From IMG/VR virus record IMGVR_UViG_3300038309_000252, positions 62,001 to 126,000 of that record: DNA of 64,000 bases. One strand, written 5' to 3'. The first letter of the stretch is position 1. The number at the start of each line of letters is the position of its first letter. Shown here piece by piece: positions 17,269 through 46,525 of this stretch. The stretch is from a virus. A program made the translations under genes and the position numbers. The notes under the pieces were generated by a model. It was not told the DNA's origin, did not search any database, and was given only the letters and a program-made list of their open reading frames with translations.

Positions 17269-17355
17269 ATTTCTTAACAAAAACCACTAGATACTTTTTA
17301 CTAAATAATACACTTGGAGATTAGGATCATCTGGGTTACTTTAGTGTAATTCATG

Positions 17356-17376
17356 AAATCCACATGTGGATTTTTT
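17356..17376 (+). terminator. rho-independent terminator of the replication operon
   Basis: AAATCCACATGTGGATTTTTT: a six-base stem with a CATG loop followed by a T run. It closes the gp43-uvsX-gp41 operon. Confidence 0.75.
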
Positions 17377-17418
17377 GCTATATATTAAATAATTTGACCA
17401 TTAATGGAACATTCACTT

Positions 17419-18888
17419 ATGCTAAACATATTTTCATTTCGATCATATATTGATAACATCTTAACTGAAGCTACAAAAGCAGAATTAGATTTACAAAAAG
17501 AAAATAATTATAAGTTTATTAATCAAATTATGTCTGAAATTGAGTTTGATGGTAAGTATACAATTGAAGGTTCAACTACTTTAATTTTAAGAATTCAAAC
17601 AAAAGAACCTAATGTTAGATTTTTAGTTAAACAACAATTTGAAAAATGGTTAGCATCACATAGTTATCAACTTGATCCTAATAATGATCTTAAAAATACA
17701 TCATTAATTATTAAACCTGATGGTTCTACTCTAAAACTTGTTTTTAAAGACGAAACTGGTGGTGTATCTGGTGGTAGTAAATTAGCTGGTGATTCTGAAT
17801 CAGCACAATGTTTGTATGCTGCTGTTTTATTAGGTGGATTTGCTTTAGATAAACCAGAAGATTTTTTAGATCATTATAAATCTATATTATCAAATTGTGA
17901 TATTCCATCTAAAGCATTGGATACAGTTCTAAAAACTATTGTTCCAAATCCAGACTGGGCACAATCTTGTATTAAAGTTGCGCATGGTATTAATAATTTT
18001 CTAGTTACCAAAAGAAAAGCATCAGATAAATTAGCAAAATATACTTTTCATAGAGGTTCAACTGTAGTTAAAAAAATTAATGCATTTTTTGAAAAAGCAA
18101 AAACTGAGTATAATTTATTAGCTAAGAATGATGATGATGCTCCAATATGCCCAAATGATGTCAATAAATGGAATCCAGCAGATATTTGGTTGTTAACACC
18201 ACAAGCAATTTCTAAAATTAACGCATTTAATCCAGCATCATTAGCTGATCTTAATGATTTTATTTTACAATTATATAATGACAATGAAGGTTTTGGCATT
18301 TCATTAAAAAAACTTAGTAAAAATAGTACAGTTAGTTTACAAGTTAATAATCATCCTTCTGATCCTGATTCATATAATGTTGACGCTGCTTTTAAAGAAT
18401 TTATGTGTACTTCAGATTCAAATAATGGTTATATTGTAGCTGATCTTCATGGTGAGCAAATATTAATTCAGTTTAGAGTATTTGAAGGATTTAGCTGGAG
18501 GTGTGAAATTAAAGGTAAAGCTGCTTCACATGGAAAAGCAGGATTTGGTGTAATTAATCAATTATTAAAAAGAGTATCAAAAATTACATTATCACCAGAA
18601 AATGAAGTCAAAACAATATTGAAAACTGGAAAAGGAAAAGAAATTATTGAATCAAGATATAATCAACTTGTTAACAGTACTTTTATAAGAAGTAAAGATA
18701 AAGGATTAAAATTAAGCTCTTTAGATAATTATGATATTAGATGGCAGTTTTCAAAGTATATGGTATTAGAATTATTTACAATTTTAATGTCACTAACACC
18801 TCAACAAAGAAATCGATTTACTCATGATATAGTTGCTTATGCTAAATCACAAACAGAGTTTTCTTCAGTATATATAAAGTTTGAGTAA
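17419..18888 (+). CDS. hypothetical 489-residue protein with possible capsid-targeting sequence
   Basis: No domain is recognised. The N terminus reads MLNIFSFRSYIDNILTEA: an amphipathic helix ending in LTE-A, which fits the prohead-protease rule of T4 ((L/I)xE followed by A or G) and resembles the next gene's start. The interior has KWNPADIWLLTP and WRCEIKGKAASHGKAG, the kind of polar motif seen in nuclease-type folds, but this is not proof. The start at 17419 has GGA ten bases upstream; 17404 is an alternative. First gene after a terminator. Confidence 0.65.
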   Translation: MLNIFSFRSYIDNILTEATKAELDLQKENNYKFINQIMSEIEFDGKYTIEGSTTLILRIQTKEPNVRFLVKQQFEKWLASHSYQLDPNNDLKNTSLIIKPDGSTLKLVFKDETGGVSGGSKLAGDSESAQCLYAAVLLGGFALDKPEDFLDHYKSILSNCDIPSKALDTVLKTIVPNPDWAQSCIKVAHGINNFLVTKRKASDKLAKYTFHRGSTVVKKINAFFEKAKTEYNLLAKNDDDAPICPNDVNKWNPADIWLLTPQAISKINAFNPASLADLNDFILQLYNDNEGFGISLKKLSKNSTVSLQVNNHPSDPDSYNVDAAFKEFMCTSDSNNGYIVADLHGEQILIQFRVFEGFSWRCEIKGKAASHGKAGFGVINQLLKRVSKITLSPENEVKTILKTGKGKEIIESRYNQLVNSTFIRSKDKGLKLSSLDNYDIRWQFSKYMVLELFTILMSLTPQQRNRFTHDIVAYAKSQTEFSSVYIKFE

Positions 18889-18890
18889 AC

Positions 18891-20150
18891 ATGTTATCAT
18901 TTCGTCAATATATTTCAAAAATTATTACAGAACAATTTCTTGTTGAAGAACAGAATGTTCACATGACTCATGTTGAAGATTTAGTTCTAATAGACGGTTC
19001 AAAAGGCGCTACTCAAGCAATTGCTTTTTTAAATGATTTGCTAAGCATGTTATCTGGTAATAGTAAATCTAGTGTAACTGCAACTGTAAAATGGGATGGT
19101 GCTCCTGCTATTTTTGCTGGTATTGATCCATCTGATAATAAGTTCTTTGTTGCAAAAAAGGGATTATTTAATAAAACTCCTTTAGTATATAAGACACCAC
19201 AAGATATTGCTGCTGATTCTAAAATGTCACCTGATTTAGCTAATAAGATGAATATAGCTCTAGATGAATTCAAAAAATTAGGAATCAAATCTGGAGTAAT
19301 TCAAGGCGATATTATGTTTACAAATGATACTTTGAAAAAAGAAGATATTAAAGGTGAAACATACATTACATTTCATCCAAATACTATTGTATATGCTATT
19401 CCGTATGATAGCGATTTAGGACAACAAATCAGAAAAGCAAAGATTGGTGTTGTTTGGCATACTAAATATACTGGTTCTTCTTTTGAATCAATGCAAGCGG
19501 AATTTGGTCGACCAATTTCAGAAACCTTAAAGAAAGTACCTTCTGTATGGATGGATGATGCCACATATAAAGATTATTCTGGTGTCGCAACATTTACTGC
19601 TAATGAGTCAAAACAGGTTAAAGCATTATTATCTAAAGCAAATCAATTATTAGCAAAACTTAAAATATTAGATAATATTAGTTCTGATACAGAACTTACA
19701 ACATTAATACAAACTTTCAATAATTCAATTATTAGGGCAGGTGAAAAAGTTGCTGATCCTATAAATCATGTAGCAATGCTTATTCAATGGATTAAGAATA
19801 GGTATGAAGGTATTATTGCTAGTAAAAAACAAGAAGCAACAAAGAAAAAGTTTCAAGATGAATGTGACAAAATAGTAAAGAAACTAGAAGATAATAAACA
19901 GCAAATAATTCTAATGTATCAATTTATAAATAATTTAGTCGATATCAAACAATTGATTATTGCTAAGATGAATCAAGCTAGTCATATTAATACTTTTATA
20001 AAAGATGCCTCAGGGTTTCATGTAACTGGAGTAGAAGGATTTGTTGCTATTGATCATTTAACAGGTAATGCTGTAAAGATTGTTGATAGAATGGAGTTTT
20101 CGAAAAATAATTTTAGCTCAGAAATTATAAAAGGATGGCAAAAAAGTTGA
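18891..20150 (+). CDS. nucleotidyltransferase/ligase-like protein, possible internal virion protein
   Basis: Motifs of the covalent nucleotidyltransferase (ligase/capping) superfamily are visible: motif I ATVKWDGAPAIFAG (lysine nucleophile, about residue 64), a motif III-like GVIQGDIMFT, motif IV VEGFVAI and motif V-like AVKIVD near the C terminus. Similar proteins occur in other T4-like phages without known substrate. The N terminus MLSFRQYISKIITEQ looks like the preceding gene's and could be a capsid-targeting peptide cut after ITE. It overlaps the next gene by 16 bases. Confidence 0.65.
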   Translation: MLSFRQYISKIITEQFLVEEQNVHMTHVEDLVLIDGSKGATQAIAFLNDLLSMLSGNSKSSVTATVKWDGAPAIFAGIDPSDNKFFVAKKGLFNKTPLVYKTPQDIAADSKMSPDLANKMNIALDEFKKLGIKSGVIQGDIMFTNDTLKKEDIKGETYITFHPNTIVYAIPYDSDLGQQIRKAKIGVVWHTKYTGSSFESMQAEFGRPISETLKKVPSVWMDDATYKDYSGVATFTANESKQVKALLSKANQLLAKLKILDNISSDTELTTLIQTFNNSIIRAGEKVADPINHVAMLIQWIKNRYEGIIASKKQEATKKKFQDECDKIVKKLEDNKQQIILMYQFINNLVDIKQLIIAKMNQASHINTFIKDASGFHVTGVEGFVAIDHLTGNAVKIVDRMEFSKNNFSSEIIKGWQKS

Positions 20151-22321
20151 AAATTGATCAGCAATTGTTGGAATCCGTAAGTAATCAAATTATTATTGGA
20201 TTTGGAAGATTTAATCCACCAACAATTGGGCATCAATTGCTAATAGAATTCATAAAAAGGTATGCCAATCAACAGCATATACCTTATAAGATTTATGTTA
20301 CTGCAACACAGGATAAAAAGAAAAATCCTTTACCACAAAATAGGAAATTATATTATCTTAATATGATGTTTCCTAATACTAATTTTGTAGGCACATCACC
20401 AACTGAAAGGACAATTATTGAAGTTCTTAAAGAATTAAATAAAACTTATTCAAATATTATTCTAGTTGCTGGTTCAGATAGAGTTGCTGAATTTCAAAAA
20501 CTAATTTCCAGTAGAAATGGAAAGGATTATGAATATACTACAATTAATGTAATGTCTGCTGGTGAACGTGATCCAGATAGTGATTCAGCATCAGGAATGT
20601 CTGCAACTAAAATGCGAGAAGCAGCAAAAAATGGTGATTTCGAATCATTCAAAAGTGGTATACCATCATCAATGAAACAAATAGATGCTAAAAAATTGAT
20701 GAATGAGGTTAGAGAAGGATTAGGTGTTGGTCCAGTAAAAGAAAGTATAAATGGGATAACAGATATTAGAGAAAAATATTATCGTGGTAAATTATTTCAT
20801 AATGGTCAATTAATAGAAACTAAAAATGAAGATGTATTTCAAATAATTAAATGTGGTACAAACCATATTATTGTAAAAGATATATTTGGAAATAGGTCTT
20901 CTAGATGGTTATATGAAGTACAACCATTGTCTGAAGCAACATCATTTTCAATTTTAAATGATAAAAATAAATTTGCTGCTATGGTAGCAAACTTATTAGA
21001 AGTTGATGTTGATAAAAATGATAGTCCAGATGATATTATCAATAAAAGCATTAATTCGCTTAAAAATAAAAAATTAACTGATGATTTGGAAAGTATAGCA
21101 AAGCAAATAATTTCTCATTCCAAAAAGATTGGAATTCAAATAGATCGTAAAAATATACCACTAAATCTACAAACAAGTGTAACAGAAGAAATAGATTTAG
21201 ATAGGTTATTTGATCTAATACCTATTATTGATCAATATAAAAATAGAGAAAATAATAGTTATCTAAATAATGAAGTATGTAATTTACCAATCAGTTTAAA
21301 ATCTAAAGCATTGATTCCTATTAATGGACAATTAAGGAGAACTAACTTGAGTTATAATTTAGAAAGTATCAATAGTGCTGAAGAATACCATATGATGAAA
21401 CAATCTCGTGGTATGCAAAAATTAATTGAACATTATATGGATAATGGTCATGAATATTGGAATGCTGTAATTCTAGCTAAAGAATCAGCAGCTGAAGCAT
21501 TGAATGAAGCATGTAAAAGCAAAAAAAGTAAAGTTACTGAACAAGATGATGAAGACATGGAAGATGATGAAGACATGTATTTAGAGTTAGATGATGGTGA
21601 CTTTGAAGACGAGGAAGATGATGAAGACATGGAAGATGATGAAGACATGGAAGATGATGAAGACATGGAAGATGATGAAGACATGGAAGATGATGAAGAC
21701 ATGGAAGATGATGAAGATCTTACTGAGCACTATAATGGTAATGAAAAAACATTAATTGAAACCTATATGGATCAGATTGCAATGTTTAGTGAATTAGATG
21801 AAGTATTGAGCGCTGCTGATCGTATGAAGCGCGCAAAGATTTTTGCCAGATCTGCAGGTAAAAGAATGGCATCAAGACTGCGTAATGCTGGTAAGCTAGC
21901 TTCAAAAGAAAAGTTAATGCAACGAGCACAATCAACCGCCATTCGTAAGCTAAAAACAAAGTTATTGAAAAAAGATCCTTCTGAGGCATCACCTGGTGAA
22001 TTAGCTAAAGTTGAAAAGAAACTTCAATCCCCACAAGCAAAAATGAGTATTAAAAAGTTTGCTCTTAAGCTATATCCAATTCTAAAGAAAAAGGATGCAG
22101 AACGAGTAGCAAAAGCTAAAGAGAAGAAAGAGGAGTATTCTGCTATCAATGAATATTCCTGGAAACCTGGTGATGAAGTAGCTCCACCAAGTAAAGCTGA
22201 AAGAGAAAGAGCAGAAAAAAGGTTTAAAGCAGTATCTGGTATTTCAAGTAGGAAAGCTGGACGTAAAGAGTTCGGTGATAGAATGGATCAAACACGTTTA
22301 GATAAATTACGTGATGAATGA
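20135..22321 (+). CDS. nucleotidyltransferase with acidic repeat and basic C-terminal domain
   Basis: Residues 17-190 form an NMN- or pantetheine-phosphate adenylyltransferase-like domain: FGRFNPPTIGHQLL (the xxGH motif) and SGMSATKMREAA (the SxTxxR motif). A middle part of unknown type follows, then seven near-identical EDDEDM acidic repeats (about residues 470-530), then a strongly basic helical domain (RMKRAKIFARSAGKRM... KLKTKLLKK). The basic domain recurs in structural or injected proteins of other T4-like phages as I remember them. 728 residues, much larger than a housekeeping adenylyltransferase. Confidence 0.65.
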   Translation: MAKKLKIDQQLLESVSNQIIIGFGRFNPPTIGHQLLIEFIKRYANQQHIPYKIYVTATQDKKKNPLPQNRKLYYLNMMFPNTNFVGTSPTERTIIEVLKELNKTYSNIILVAGSDRVAEFQKLISSRNGKDYEYTTINVMSAGERDPDSDSASGMSATKMREAAKNGDFESFKSGIPSSMKQIDAKKLMNEVREGLGVGPVKESINGITDIREKYYRGKLFHNGQLIETKNEDVFQIIKCGTNHIIVKDIFGNRSSRWLYEVQPLSEATSFSILNDKNKFAAMVANLLEVDVDKNDSPDDIINKSINSLKNKKLTDDLESIAKQIISHSKKIGIQIDRKNIPLNLQTSVTEEIDLDRLFDLIPIIDQYKNRENNSYLNNEVCNLPISLKSKALIPINGQLRRTNLSYNLESINSAEEYHMMKQSRGMQKLIEHYMDNGHEYWNAVILAKESAAEALNEACKSKKSKVTEQDDEDMEDDEDMYLELDDGDFEDEEDDEDMEDDEDMEDDEDMEDDEDMEDDEDMEDDEDLTEHYNGNEKTLIETYMDQIAMFSELDEVLSAADRMKRAKIFARSAGKRMASRLRNAGKLASKEKLMQRAQSTAIRKLKTKLLKKDPSEASPGELAKVEKKLQSPQAKMSIKKFALKLYPILKKKDAERVAKAKEKKEEYSAINEYSWKPGDEVAPPSKAERERAEKRFKAVSGISSRKAGRKEFGDRMDQTRLDKLRDE
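21614..21717 (+). repeat. 18-base tandem repeat in coding sequence
   Basis: Five full copies of GAAGATGATGAAGACATG plus a partial one, encoding EDDEDM. A separate copy lies about 65 bases upstream. The near identity of the copies points to recent expansion. Confidence 0.9.
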
Positions 22322-22401: not shown

Positions 22402-23916
22402 ATGTCTATAAAAGATATATTAAATCGAAATAAAAATGCAGGTAATAAAGGTAATAAACCTACACCTGTAAAAGATTTCATTCATCAACAAGCAAATAAT
22501 CCAATTAAAGATGCTAGTCCTGTTATAAAGGATTTTATTAAAAATAGACAACACAATGAAGTAAAACATACTCCATTAAAAGATGCAATTTCTTCTGTTA
22601 AAGATAATGAAGTAAAACATACTCCATTAAAAGATGCAATTTCTTCTGTTAAAGATAATGAAGTAAAACATACTCCATGGGGTACTCCATTAAAAGATGC
22701 AATGACTTCTATTAAAGATAATGAACATACTCCATTAAAAGATATTGCTGATAACATTTCCAAAAATGTACATATGCCACATCTTCCAAGAAATAATGAT
22801 CTTACAATTAAAGATACAGCACATAATATAGCTGATACTGTTAAAACTAATATTTCAGATACATTTAATAGCATTAAATCTAGATTTAATGCTAAAGATC
22901 ATGCTCATTTAGATGCTATTAAAGATAATATAACAGAAGTTGTTAATAATGTTAAACATATTCCAAATATTGATGCAGCATCATTTATTGATAAAGTTAA
23001 AACTGGAATTGATAATAAGATTGATGATATTAAATTAGGTTTCCCTGTTTCTGACCATCATATTTTAGATAATATTAAAACACAAGTAACTTCTACAGTT
23101 AATAATATTAAAAACAATGGTTTAGGAAATATTAGAAATAATATTTCAAATACTATTGAGACTGTAAAAGATGACATTCATGATTTTTTCGATGATAAAA
23201 ATATTAATTTAGATACCATAAAAGATACTGCTGATAATATTAAATCAAATATTGGTGAACATCTTTCAGATTTTATGCAAGGTGATCATCCTGTAATAGA
23301 TAATATTGAATCTGAAGTAATGAATATTATTAATAATATTAAAAATAGTATTGGTGGAATCTCTGGTTCAGGAATAGTAATTAATACACTATTATCATCA
23401 TTAAATGGTGTTAAACAATTAATTATGCATTCACCAACTGAAATTACATCTGCTATTACCATGGTGAGCAATCTTATTCATAAATTAAATAACTTTAATG
23501 TGCTTGGTGGTGGTAAGGCATCTTTAATTATTGATTTTATTGATATGTTTTTAAATAATATTACAAAATTACTATCATTAGGAGGTTCTGCTGTTAATAT
23601 AATTGATGATATTATTTCTGTTCTTGAAGAGATTCTTCCTAATAAATCAGAACCACCATCTGTCCCAGCTGTCCCAGAACAACCTAGTATGTCTGATGTA
23701 GTAATACATCAACAAGATGAAGTAAATACAAGCGATATGGCAAGTATTGATGATGACCAATTAGTATCACATGAATCTACAGTATCTATTTCTGATAATA
23801 CTAATAAAGATGATTTATGCTCTAATATTGATCAATTATCTGATCATGGATTTGTCATCGAACATGTAGATACTTTTAATGTATATATACATGATAAAGA
23901 TCATAGTGATAATTAA
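22402..23916 (+). CDS. amphipathic-repeat protein, function unknown
   Basis: 504 residues. Near the N terminus, a 17-residue unit beginning NEVKHTPLKDAI is repeated twice exactly and twice in degraded form (22555-22740). Residues 130-320 hold many degenerate helical repeats of the type DNIKxxVxxxVNNIK, like LEA or perilipin amphipathic helices. A hydrophobic Gly-rich stretch and an acidic tail follow. GAGGA precedes the ATG. Between nucleotidyltransferase and membrane-protein genes, it may be a virion or membrane-surface protein. Confidence 0.6.
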   Translation: MSIKDILNRNKNAGNKGNKPTPVKDFIHQQANNPIKDASPVIKDFIKNRQHNEVKHTPLKDAISSVKDNEVKHTPLKDAISSVKDNEVKHTPWGTPLKDAMTSIKDNEHTPLKDIADNISKNVHMPHLPRNNDLTIKDTAHNIADTVKTNISDTFNSIKSRFNAKDHAHLDAIKDNITEVVNNVKHIPNIDAASFIDKVKTGIDNKIDDIKLGFPVSDHHILDNIKTQVTSTVNNIKNNGLGNIRNNISNTIETVKDDIHDFFDDKNINLDTIKDTADNIKSNIGEHLSDFMQGDHPVIDNIESEVMNIINNIKNSIGGISGSGIVINTLLSSLNGVKQLIMHSPTEITSAITMVSNLIHKLNNFNVLGGGKASLIIDFIDMFLNNITKLLSLGGSAVNIIDDIISVLEEILPNKSEPPSVPAVPEQPSMSDVVIHQQDEVNTSDMASIDDDQLVSHESTVSISDNTNKDDLCSNIDQLSDHGFVIEHVDTFNVYIHDKDHSDN

Positions 23917-30232: not shown

Positions 30233-31279
30233 TTAGATAAGTTCAAAATGAAATGGATCAATCAATGTTGATAATGATGCTTTTTGACTAGAAGAGTATA
30301 AATCCACATTTTTAGCTAAATCTAGGAATCTAATATCACCATATGCCCAGCATGATCCCCATCTTAATGGTATTTGTAATTCTTTTGCCACAGATTGAAC
30401 TGCTGTTGCTAATGACATATATGATGCTTTCAATTTAAGGTCATTCAATTCCTGATGTTGCAACAAAGGTTTAAAATATTCATAAAACCCACGTTTTTTC
30501 TTAGCAATATCTGGTGAATTATACCCTACTTTATTTAGTGCTGCAAGATAATAATCAGGATGTGATTTAGGATCAATATTAGATGGAATATTTTGTTTAA
30601 AAAATAAAACAGTAATATCTGCAGCAATTTGAGGATCATTCATCATATCTGGTCTTTCATCAATTGGAATACCTGAAAGTTTAGCAAACTTTTCGTAATT
30701 ATATCTTCCTGTCAATTGAATGAATCCCCTACCATAATATTTTCCACCATCATCTGCTTTAATATTACCTAAGATTTTTCCTTGTGGAGTTGTTGGTCCA
30801 TATATAAAATTAAAAAACTCTGCTCTAGTACCTTTGTTTTTCGTTTTCCAATTAGCATATTTATTTGCTAAAGATGCATTACCATGAAAAATTGATGGAA
30901 ATATTTTTAACAATCTATTAGATGAGTATTCATAATATTCTTCTTGACATTTCCATTCACATTCACCACCAACAATACCCAATACGGAAGCTTTTTGAAC
31001 TGGTGTAAAAAATTGATATTTATCACATGCTTTAATCAATAACGCAATATTGGTTTTTAATTCAGAATTATAAGGTTTAGGTGGAATTATATCATCATAA
31101 ATTGGAGTTGGCAATAATATGTCAATTGCTGAACCAGATTGATGTGATTGCGTCATTTCTTTCTTATGTTCTTTTGCAGCGCTTCCTAATGTAAACTGTA
31201 CAGGACTTGTAGAATATAATTTATCTATTAGTTTTATAAGTTTAGGATTAATAGATTTGATTAACGGATTTATTGTCAT
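30233..31279 (-). CDS. endolysin: GH19-type lysozyme domain inserted in an M15-type peptidase
   Basis: The first 60 residues and the last 65 together resemble one M15 D,L-peptidase: QSHQSGSAIDI (the SxHxxGxAxD zinc motif) near residue 45, and LRWGSCWAYGDI with DPFHFEL (the HFE motif) at the C terminus. Between them (about residues 75-285) sits a GH19 chitinase/lysozyme-like domain with the catalytic Glu in VGGECEW and the signature YYGRGFIQLTGRYNY. So two cell-wall activities are nested. 348 residues; overlaps phoH by four bases. Confidence 0.75.
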   Translation of the reverse strand: MTINPLIKSINPKLIKLIDKLYSTSPVQFTLGSAAKEHKKEMTQSHQSGSAIDILLPTPIYDDIIPPKPYNSELKTNIALLIKACDKYQFFTPVQKASVLGIVGGECEWKCQEEYYEYSSNRLLKIFPSIFHGNASLANKYANWKTKNKGTRAEFFNFIYGPTTPQGKILGNIKADDGGKYYGRGFIQLTGRYNYEKFAKLSGIPIDERPDMMNDPQIAADITVLFFKQNIPSNIDPKSHPDYYLAALNKVGYNSPDIAKKKRGFYEYFKPLLQHQELNDLKLKASYMSLATAVQSVAKELQIPLRWGSCWAYGDIRFLDLAKNVDLYSSSQKASLSTLIDPFHFELI

Positions 31280-45329: not shown

Positions 45330-46025
45330 ATGAATGAATATGAATGCGTTACTTTCATTTCAGATACCCTAGTTAAGGCAGCTGCTTCTCAAGCAGTTTC
45401 TGACGCTAATGGTAAGATTGAAAAGTGTGCATATGATATTTTCATTACGGACAAGATGATTGAGAATATCAATGCTATGGCATGTAATAATGATTCATCA
45501 TCTGATGAAGATCATACTGCCATAAACACGCTTCTTTCTGATATCTGGGCATCGAGATTTAGCGTCTTTGATGGTTTGTATAAGTCTGCGTATGAGTTTT
45601 CATATAATAAAGAAGTAGACCGTTTGTCTAAGGCAGGAATTGATCCTGTACCTTATGGTGATGTTATCAAAGGCAATGCTTTTGTGATGCCTTCTCCAAG
45701 GAAGAAGACCAGCAAAAAGAAGAGTCTTGCTGAGACTAGCAAAGCTATAGAACCTGTTGACAATTCAGAAGATCCTATTGATGATGAACCAGAAGTAAAG
45801 ACTCCAAAGACTCCAATTCCTGCAAAAAAGGTTAAGGAAAAGGTAGTTAAGGAAAAGGCACCAAAAGTAAGGAATGGCACATTGCTTGAGAAAGCTCTTG
45901 AAATCTACAAGCAAGAAGTTAATCCGACTAGAAAGGTTATGATGCATATGTTTATTGACAAGCTGGGTATGAAACCCAACAGTGCATCTACATACTTCTA
46001 CTTCTGTAAGGATCGCGCTGGTTAA
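45330..46025 (+). CDS. early protein with C-terminal ASTYFY domain
   Basis: 231 residues. N-terminal helical domain (about 1-125), a flexible Lys/Pro linker (KKTSKKKSLAETSK, then PKTPIPAKKVKEK), and a C-terminal domain ALEIYKQEVNPTRKVMMHMF ... KPNSASTYFYFCKDRAG shared with the protein at 42391. GAGG precedes the ATG. It follows the tRNA in one transcript. Confidence 0.7.
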   Translation: MNEYECVTFISDTLVKAAASQAVSDANGKIEKCAYDIFITDKMIENINAMACNNDSSSDEDHTAINTLLSDIWASRFSVFDGLYKSAYEFSYNKEVDRLSKAGIDPVPYGDVIKGNAFVMPSPRKKTSKKKSLAETSKAIEPVDNSEDPIDDEPEVKTPKTPIPAKKVKEKVVKEKAPKVRNGTLLEKALEIYKQEVNPTRKVMMHMFIDKLGMKPNSASTYFYFCKDRAG

Positions 46026-46037
46026 CCAGCGCGATCC
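46010..46037 (+). terminator. 28-base hairpin containing the stop codon
   Basis: GGATCGCGCTGG, loop TTAA, CCAGCGCGATCC: a perfect 12-base stem whose loop is part of the TAA stop. No T run follows. Confidence 0.65.
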
Positions 46038-46059
46038 ATTTGGCAAAATGGAGACCTTT

Positions 46060-46332
46060 ATGGGATGCTGCTTTCATATATCTGTAAACTATTTGAATGC
46101 ATCAATCAAGAATGGAAACCCTAATGGTTTATGGTTTCAGAAATTGGATGATGGACGATACAAAATTATCCATTCTGGTTCATTGTGGGTTTGGCAACAA
46201 TTGTTTGCTCCTGGAAGGATAGTGAACAGGAATCAACTTGAATTCTTCATAACTGAATATGAAGGTGATGCATACATTGTTGACAGGTTCAATGAAATGC
46301 CAGCTTCTGGAAAGAAGCTAGCTTCTGGATGA
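46060..46332 (+). CDS. hypothetical early protein
   Basis: 90 residues starting MGCCFHISVNYLNASI; contains WFQKLDDGRYKIIHSGSLWV, a beta-rich stretch. GGAG lies ahead of ATG 46060; the frame is open further back through the preceding gene. No family recognised. Confidence 0.55.
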   Translation: MGCCFHISVNYLNASIKNGNPNGLWFQKLDDGRYKIIHSGSLWVWQQLFAPGRIVNRNQLEFFITEYEGDAYIVDRFNEMPASGKKLASG

Positions 46333-46342
46333 TGGTGGGAAC

Positions 46343-46525
46343 ATGAACAGAAAATCTAATAGTCTTGTAATGAAATGGATCATTTGTGAACACTTGCCAC
46401 AGGAACAGTCTTGTGGCAATGCGTCCAGCAATGAGGCAACACGCAGCGTTAAGTCTAGACCAGCTGTCAAATGTGCTTGGGTGTTGCAAAAGGACATAGT
46501 TGACAAGCAATCCAAAATTGGGTAA
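46343..46525 (+). CDS. possible small basic protein
   Basis: 60 residues, GTGGGA before the ATG. The frame runs into the -10 box of the next promoter. Cys-containing (ICEHLPQEQSCG) but no clear zinc motif. It may be real or chance. Confidence 0.4.
   Translation: MNRKSNSLVMKWIICEHLPQEQSCGNASSNEATRSVKSRPAVKCAWVLQKDIVDKQSKIG

Follow-up and report, generated by a model that had tools for sequence, protein, structure and literature searches.

Two adjacent genes of an uncultivated T4-like phage probably encode head cargo: both proteins carry an N-terminal leader, would be cleaved in the head and would leave it together with the DNA, and the second protein would act as an RNA-ligase-like enzyme on nucleic acid ends. 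Our analysis supports the leader being a capsid-targeting sequence of the T4 type. Since this head-loading tag lies on two neighbours, one of which resembles an enzyme of the RNA ligase type, ready-made enzymes are probably injected with the phage DNA. The cargo is new, while the packaging mechanism is already known. The window analysed here comprises 64,000 nucleotides, bases 62001-126000 of a 132.6-kb IMG/VR virus record; positions refer to the window unless the record is named.

The gene pair and its N termini

The two genes lie downstream of window ORFs for a polymerase, UvsX and a gp41-type helicase, in an AT-rich genome (30% GC). Protein 1 (17419..18888, plus strand) belongs to the phrog_1462 family (PHROG 1.3e-42); a GGA stands about 10 nt upstream of its start at 17419, and an alternative start is found at 17404. 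Protein 2 (18891..20150, plus strand) matches DUF6267 (PF19782; Pfam 1.1e-104). Among isolates it is closest, at 45-46% identity, to proteins of Methylophilales phage Melnitz and Stenotrophomonas phage DLP6, which likewise have a leader on their DUF6267 protein; Pelagibacter phage HTVC008M and cyanophages come next. Protein 3 (20135..22321, plus strand) begins with a cytidylyltransferase/NMN-adenylyltransferase-like domain (PF01467 1.7e-6, phrog_3041 4e-62). Between gp41 and protein 1, at 17355-17380, the palindrome AATCCACATGTGGATT is followed by T's, a terminator-like arrangement that suggests a transcript of their own for the following genes. Late expression is without support from a promoter scan, because the T4 late promoter TATAAATA was not enriched in the window (6 vs 14.7 expected). 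Further along, an ORF at 22402-23916 contains KDxxSSVKDNEVKHTPL repeats with a weak likeness to tape-measure proteins. A GH19 chitinase-like domain, probably an endolysin, is encoded at 30233-31279 (minus strand) and adjoins PhoH, a PD-(D/E)XK-type nuclease and a Clp-protease-like protein.

Homologues of gp21, gp22 and gp23 are encoded at 45.7-48.5 kb of the record, the gp21 protease homologue at record positions 45705-46349. The same phage thus co-encodes a gp21-type prohead protease, whose predicted cleavage specificity is of the (L/I)xE type; its gp23 presents TLNE/D at the expected place (slashes mark cut sites).

According to the original prediction, two adjacent proteins open with a similar peptide, and this proved correct. 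The N termini MLNIFSFRSYIDNILTE-A (protein 1) and MLSFRQYISKIITE-Q (protein 2) are identical in 8/13 residues and form the top-scoring pair among the 2,775 N-terminal pairs given by the 75 gene calls of the phage, the runner-up having 6 identical residues. Such likeness was reached in 0.02% of shuffles. The leader of protein 1 (MLNIFSFRSYIDNILTE; 17419..17469, plus strand) has a predicted cut after Glu17 (LTE/A), and that of protein 2 (MLSFRQYISKIITEQFLVE; 18891..18947, plus strand) after Glu19, with Glu14 as the alternative. The leader of protein 2, with F4, Y7 and I8 at the key positions, scores 14.6; only two ORFs of the phage exceed 6, and the other one, of 74 residues on the minus strand (record positions 88706-88930), scores high without an LxE. 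Protein 1 keeps the same spacing of key residues, shifted by 3. The search for the same leader elsewhere in this phage, proposed together with the prediction, gave no convincing carrier beyond these two proteins.

The comparison with T4 internal proteins, also part of that prediction, agrees with the sequences in NC_000866, in which IPII and IPIII start with MKTYQEFIAE/A and IPI with MKTFKEFTSTTTPVSTITE/A. As in these proteins, the leaders take up the N-terminal 10-19 residues, with an aromatic residue or Leu at position 4, an aromatic residue at 7, Ile or Leu at 8 and an (L/I)xE end, and the phage encodes a gp21-type protease. In contrast to T4, the leader of protein 1 starts 3 residues later, and the residue after the predicted cut is often acidic in DUF6267 proteins, whereas it is Ala in the internal proteins. 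The cargo differs as well: T4 internal proteins are small and basic, while here an RNA-ligase-like enzyme and an uncharacterised protein are encoded beside replication genes. The original view of the cleavage sites stands as regards the leader itself but is refined for protein 2, where Glu14 is the less likely cut. Glu19 is invariant in 42 sequences and lines up with the invariant final leader Glu of relatives, so the more likely cut is FLVE/EQN, leaving a leader of 19 residues as in IPI. The Pfam match in protein 2 opens at residue 22, past the leader. In the AF2 models, protein 1 has a helix at residues 5-17 with a pLDDT of about 37, and residues 1-23 of protein 2 (pLDDT <50) adjoin a well-predicted core.

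Leaders in relatives and in cyanophage virions

Across 80 viral-contig loci, the 10-mer just before the DUF6267 domain reads M-(K/L)-(S/N/K)-(F/L)-(K/S/N)-x-(F/Y)-(I/L)-(T/A)-E. A fixed regular expression places the leader immediately ahead of DUF6267 in 47/54 non-redundant relatives, compared with a mean of 1.7 after shuffling. Residue 4 is F/L/Y in 27/28 leaders, residue 7 is F/Y in 24/28 and residue 8 is I/L/V in 28/28. These conserved positions are those that matter in T4, where IPIII leader mutants link residues 4 and 7 to targeting and residues 8 and 10 to processing (PMC9026906). The invariance of Glu at position 10 is not independent evidence, since this residue was required during peptide collection.

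The leader is not restricted to DUF6267. In the same loci it was present on 12/29 cytidylyltransferases, on 3/5 phrog_1462 proteins and, against a shuffle mean of 5.3, on 39/311 further genes nearby; none of the replication proteins had it (0/11 gp41, 0/3 UvsX). Among the other carriers are a HAD protein (phrog_415, 1.7e-6; polynucleotide kinase-related), a zeta-toxin-like P-loop protein, an SprT-like protein and kinase proteins. As unrelated folds have it in common, the leader is more readily understood as a signal for targeting than as a piece of a domain. The HAD phosphatase-like carriers, weakly related to polynucleotide kinase, occur in the same cassette as DUF6267 (L013 2170-2814, L014 979-1623, L019, L020, L023, L030 and L037). 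The leader is optional for DUF6267 and phrog_1462 proteins: six phrog_1462 relatives have a clear one (L098, L132, L140, L165, L029, L042) and many others do not, and it is missing from those DUF6267 proteins of cyanophages that we examined.

Virion proteomes of cyanophages allowed a comparison with proteins detected in particles. In purified S-CREM2 virions, 52 proteins were identified by mass spectrometry (MS; PMC10665884). We scored the 219 annotated proteins of this phage with a matrix built solely from metagenomic DUF6267 leaders, and the top two scores, for the cytidylyltransferase ORF154 and for ORF13, both belong to proteins detected in virions. Of the non-structural proteins with a score of at least 8, 5/7 were MS-detected, the SAM hydrolase, APH kinase and cytidylyltransferase among them, vs 23/188 of the others (Fisher p = 0.00075). 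At a score of at least 6 the figures were 6/10 vs 22/185 (p = 0.00073), and this cut-off includes the Cas9-like protein. Four virion-detected non-structural enzymes carry the leader, namely a SAM hydrolase (MKDFDSFLEE), an APH-type kinase (MKRFDAFLTE), the Cas9-like protein (PLRFASFMAE after 15 extra residues, score 7.3) and the cytidylyltransferase. High scorers absent from the MS list are ORFs 175 and 199. The virion-detected ORFs with a leader in S-CREM2 (OR473000) are 6, 12, 13, 14, 136 and 154 (L179, L180).

Similar observations come from other cyanophages. The S-SM1 cytidylyltransferase T4-GC190, present in virions, begins with MKKFSAFLNE/A (PMC3037559), and the S-SCSM1 NMNAT-like protein, also with a leader, is in the virion list (PMC9602691). 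In S-SZBM1, the cytidylyltransferase with the leader MRFRQFIIE/A is in the virion list, and the adjacent DUF6267 protein and the phrog_1462 protein before it (ORFs 141, 142), both leaderless, are absent from it (PMC9146016). S-SCSM1 ORF90, which is related to phrog_1462, shows no clear leader and is nevertheless annotated as a virion protein (PMC9602691). The cytidylyltransferase/NMNAT of these four cyanophages is an MS-detected protein with the same leader as here, and its gene neighbourhood is as here in most of them; S-CREM2 differs. The distribution of the leader is different, however. DUF6267 is without it in S-SM1 and in S-SZBM1. Here it lies on DUF6267 and also on the phrog_1462 protein, and the cytidylyltransferase has instead a possible LxE site alone, its N terminus MAKKLKIDQQLLE/S showing no clear leader.

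The authors of two of the MS studies warn that carry-over after CsCl purification is possible (PMC9602691, PMC10665884). That virion-detected enzymes carry the leader supports true packaging in S-CREM2 rather than carry-over. The paper on S-CREM2 virions makes no mention of targeting or N termini (PMC10665884), the MS texts consulted report no leader removal from the virion-detected proteins of relatives, and our literature search found no paper in which cargo of cyanophages or pelagiphages is linked to a capsid-targeting sequence. The initial description of these N termini as capsid-targeting-like is supported by several lines that agree: sequence, position-specific conservation, unrelated carriers and cyanophage virion MS.

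The DUF6267 protein and its neighbours

One of the two proteins had been predicted to contain ligase-type nucleotidyltransferase motifs. This is protein 2, in which K67-W-D-G, Q138-G-D140, E382-G-x-V385 and V395-K396 are invariant in 42 sequences. Lysyl-AMP nucleotidyltransferases carry their motifs I, III, IV and V in the order seen here for KWDG, QGD, EGxV and VK. T4 RNA ligases Rnl1 and Rnl2 and other members of this class share with DUF6267 the KxDG of motif I, the EGxV of motif IV and the Lys of motif V; DUF6267 differs in having Asp for Glu at motif III (D140) and a long, helical insertion that separates motif III from motif IV. A Foldseek search of the PDB with the protein 2 model gave no significant match. 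When the Foldseek candidates were aligned with VIA-align, the best structural alignments were with RNA ligases, which took all of the top 17 places with Z 6.2-7.0 (rmsd 4.1-5.1 over 167-213 residues), although a Z of about 7 may reflect a mere common arrangement. No match in sequence between DUF6267 and a solved ligase could be detected, and profile searches of PDB sequences with DUF6267 or the protein 1 family returned nothing meaningful. Motifs and modest structural match together support the assignment of protein 2 to the lysyl-AMP nucleotidyltransferases of the ligase type, with RNA ligases as the closest likeness and with a predicted activity. We found no mention of DUF6267 in the literature searched. 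Unlike T4 Rnl1 and Rnl2, which are made after infection, DUF6267 would be packaged.

The protein 1 family has conserved WNPADIW and GxSLKK motifs, suggestive of a PD-(D/E)XK nuclease, with no Pfam or structural match behind them. Pfam found no consistent domain in 35 family members, Foldseek gave no significant match to the protein 1 model, and VIA-align returned small-domain matches only.

In protein 3 the nucleotidyltransferase domain is followed by acidic repeats and a basic C-terminal module. The repeats are tandem (DEDMED; window 21448-21702), and the module (residues ~540-672) is common to leader-bearing proteins of relatives. Modules of this kind (phrog_23027-like) also occur in loci L066, L058, L012 and L088. 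Their carriers are cytidylyltransferases, P-loop kinases or small proteins that stand alone, and several of these have leader-like N termini. The basic module may be a second packaging-related part.

Proposed packaging and injection, and alternative explanations

We propose that the N-terminal helix, with an aromatic residue or Leu at 4, an aromatic residue at 7, Ile or Leu at 8 and a terminal Glu, would bind the prohead scaffold core, and that the gp21-type protease would cut it off after (L/I)xE. The mature enzymes would remain in the head and exit with the DNA at infection, and protein 2 would most likely work on nucleic acid ends as soon as infection begins, sealing RNA cut by host defences, for instance. 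Packaging has good support; for this phage we infer it together with cleavage and injection, and likewise the substrate and role of protein 2 at nucleic acid ends. The original prediction favoured an action on host nucleic acids, but a role in repairing RNA or DNA in the course of infection is no less likely.

The leader could instead be a helix by which the proteins dock onto some other complex of the phage, such as the replisome, and they would then act only within the cell that produces them. We consider this unlikely. The genes come directly after uvsX-gp41 in several phages, and a short amphipathic N-terminal helix might bind many partners, but the leader matches the T4 targeting sequence at one position after another, down to a terminal (L/I)xE for which docking would have no use. 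Moreover, gp41 and UvsX themselves are without the leader, and in S-CREM2 it lies on virion-detected ORFs 6, 12, 13 and 14, far from the replication cluster.

Alternatively, the leader might package proteins whose main role is structural, in head assembly, their enzyme domains being inactive or unimportant. T4 IPIII does affect head assembly (PMC9026906), and some of the cargo ends in the basic module, with a net charge of +17 to +29. We nonetheless think this explanation improbable: the catalytic motifs of DUF6267 are invariant and the cargo folds are highly varied, which fits enzymes better. A chance resemblance of two N termini, which short peptides and the preference of an AT-rich genome for F, Y, I, K and N would favour, is very improbable, being already contradicted by the rank of the pair and by the retention of the leader in relatives.

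Returning to leader-tagged, injected cargo, a wider reading is possible, although we hold it as tentative. Aquatic T4-like phages may carry in the head a leader-tagged enzyme kit that includes the RNA-ligase-like DUF6267, a polynucleotide kinase-related HAD phosphatase, a P-loop kinase and a nucleotidyltransferase. The kit would be injected with the DNA and would repair defence-cut RNA or DNA from time zero.

In summary, DUF6267, a family of unknown function with 384 phage records, gains a likely place and a likely chemistry. Cyanophage virion proteomes repeatedly list unexpected enzymes, and their authors were unable to say which are cargo and which are contaminants. A leader that can be recognised in the sequence would help to tell the two apart and to predict injected genes. 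It could provide a means of searching the genomes of aquatic phages for enzymes of host takeover or counter-defence that are packaged in advance.
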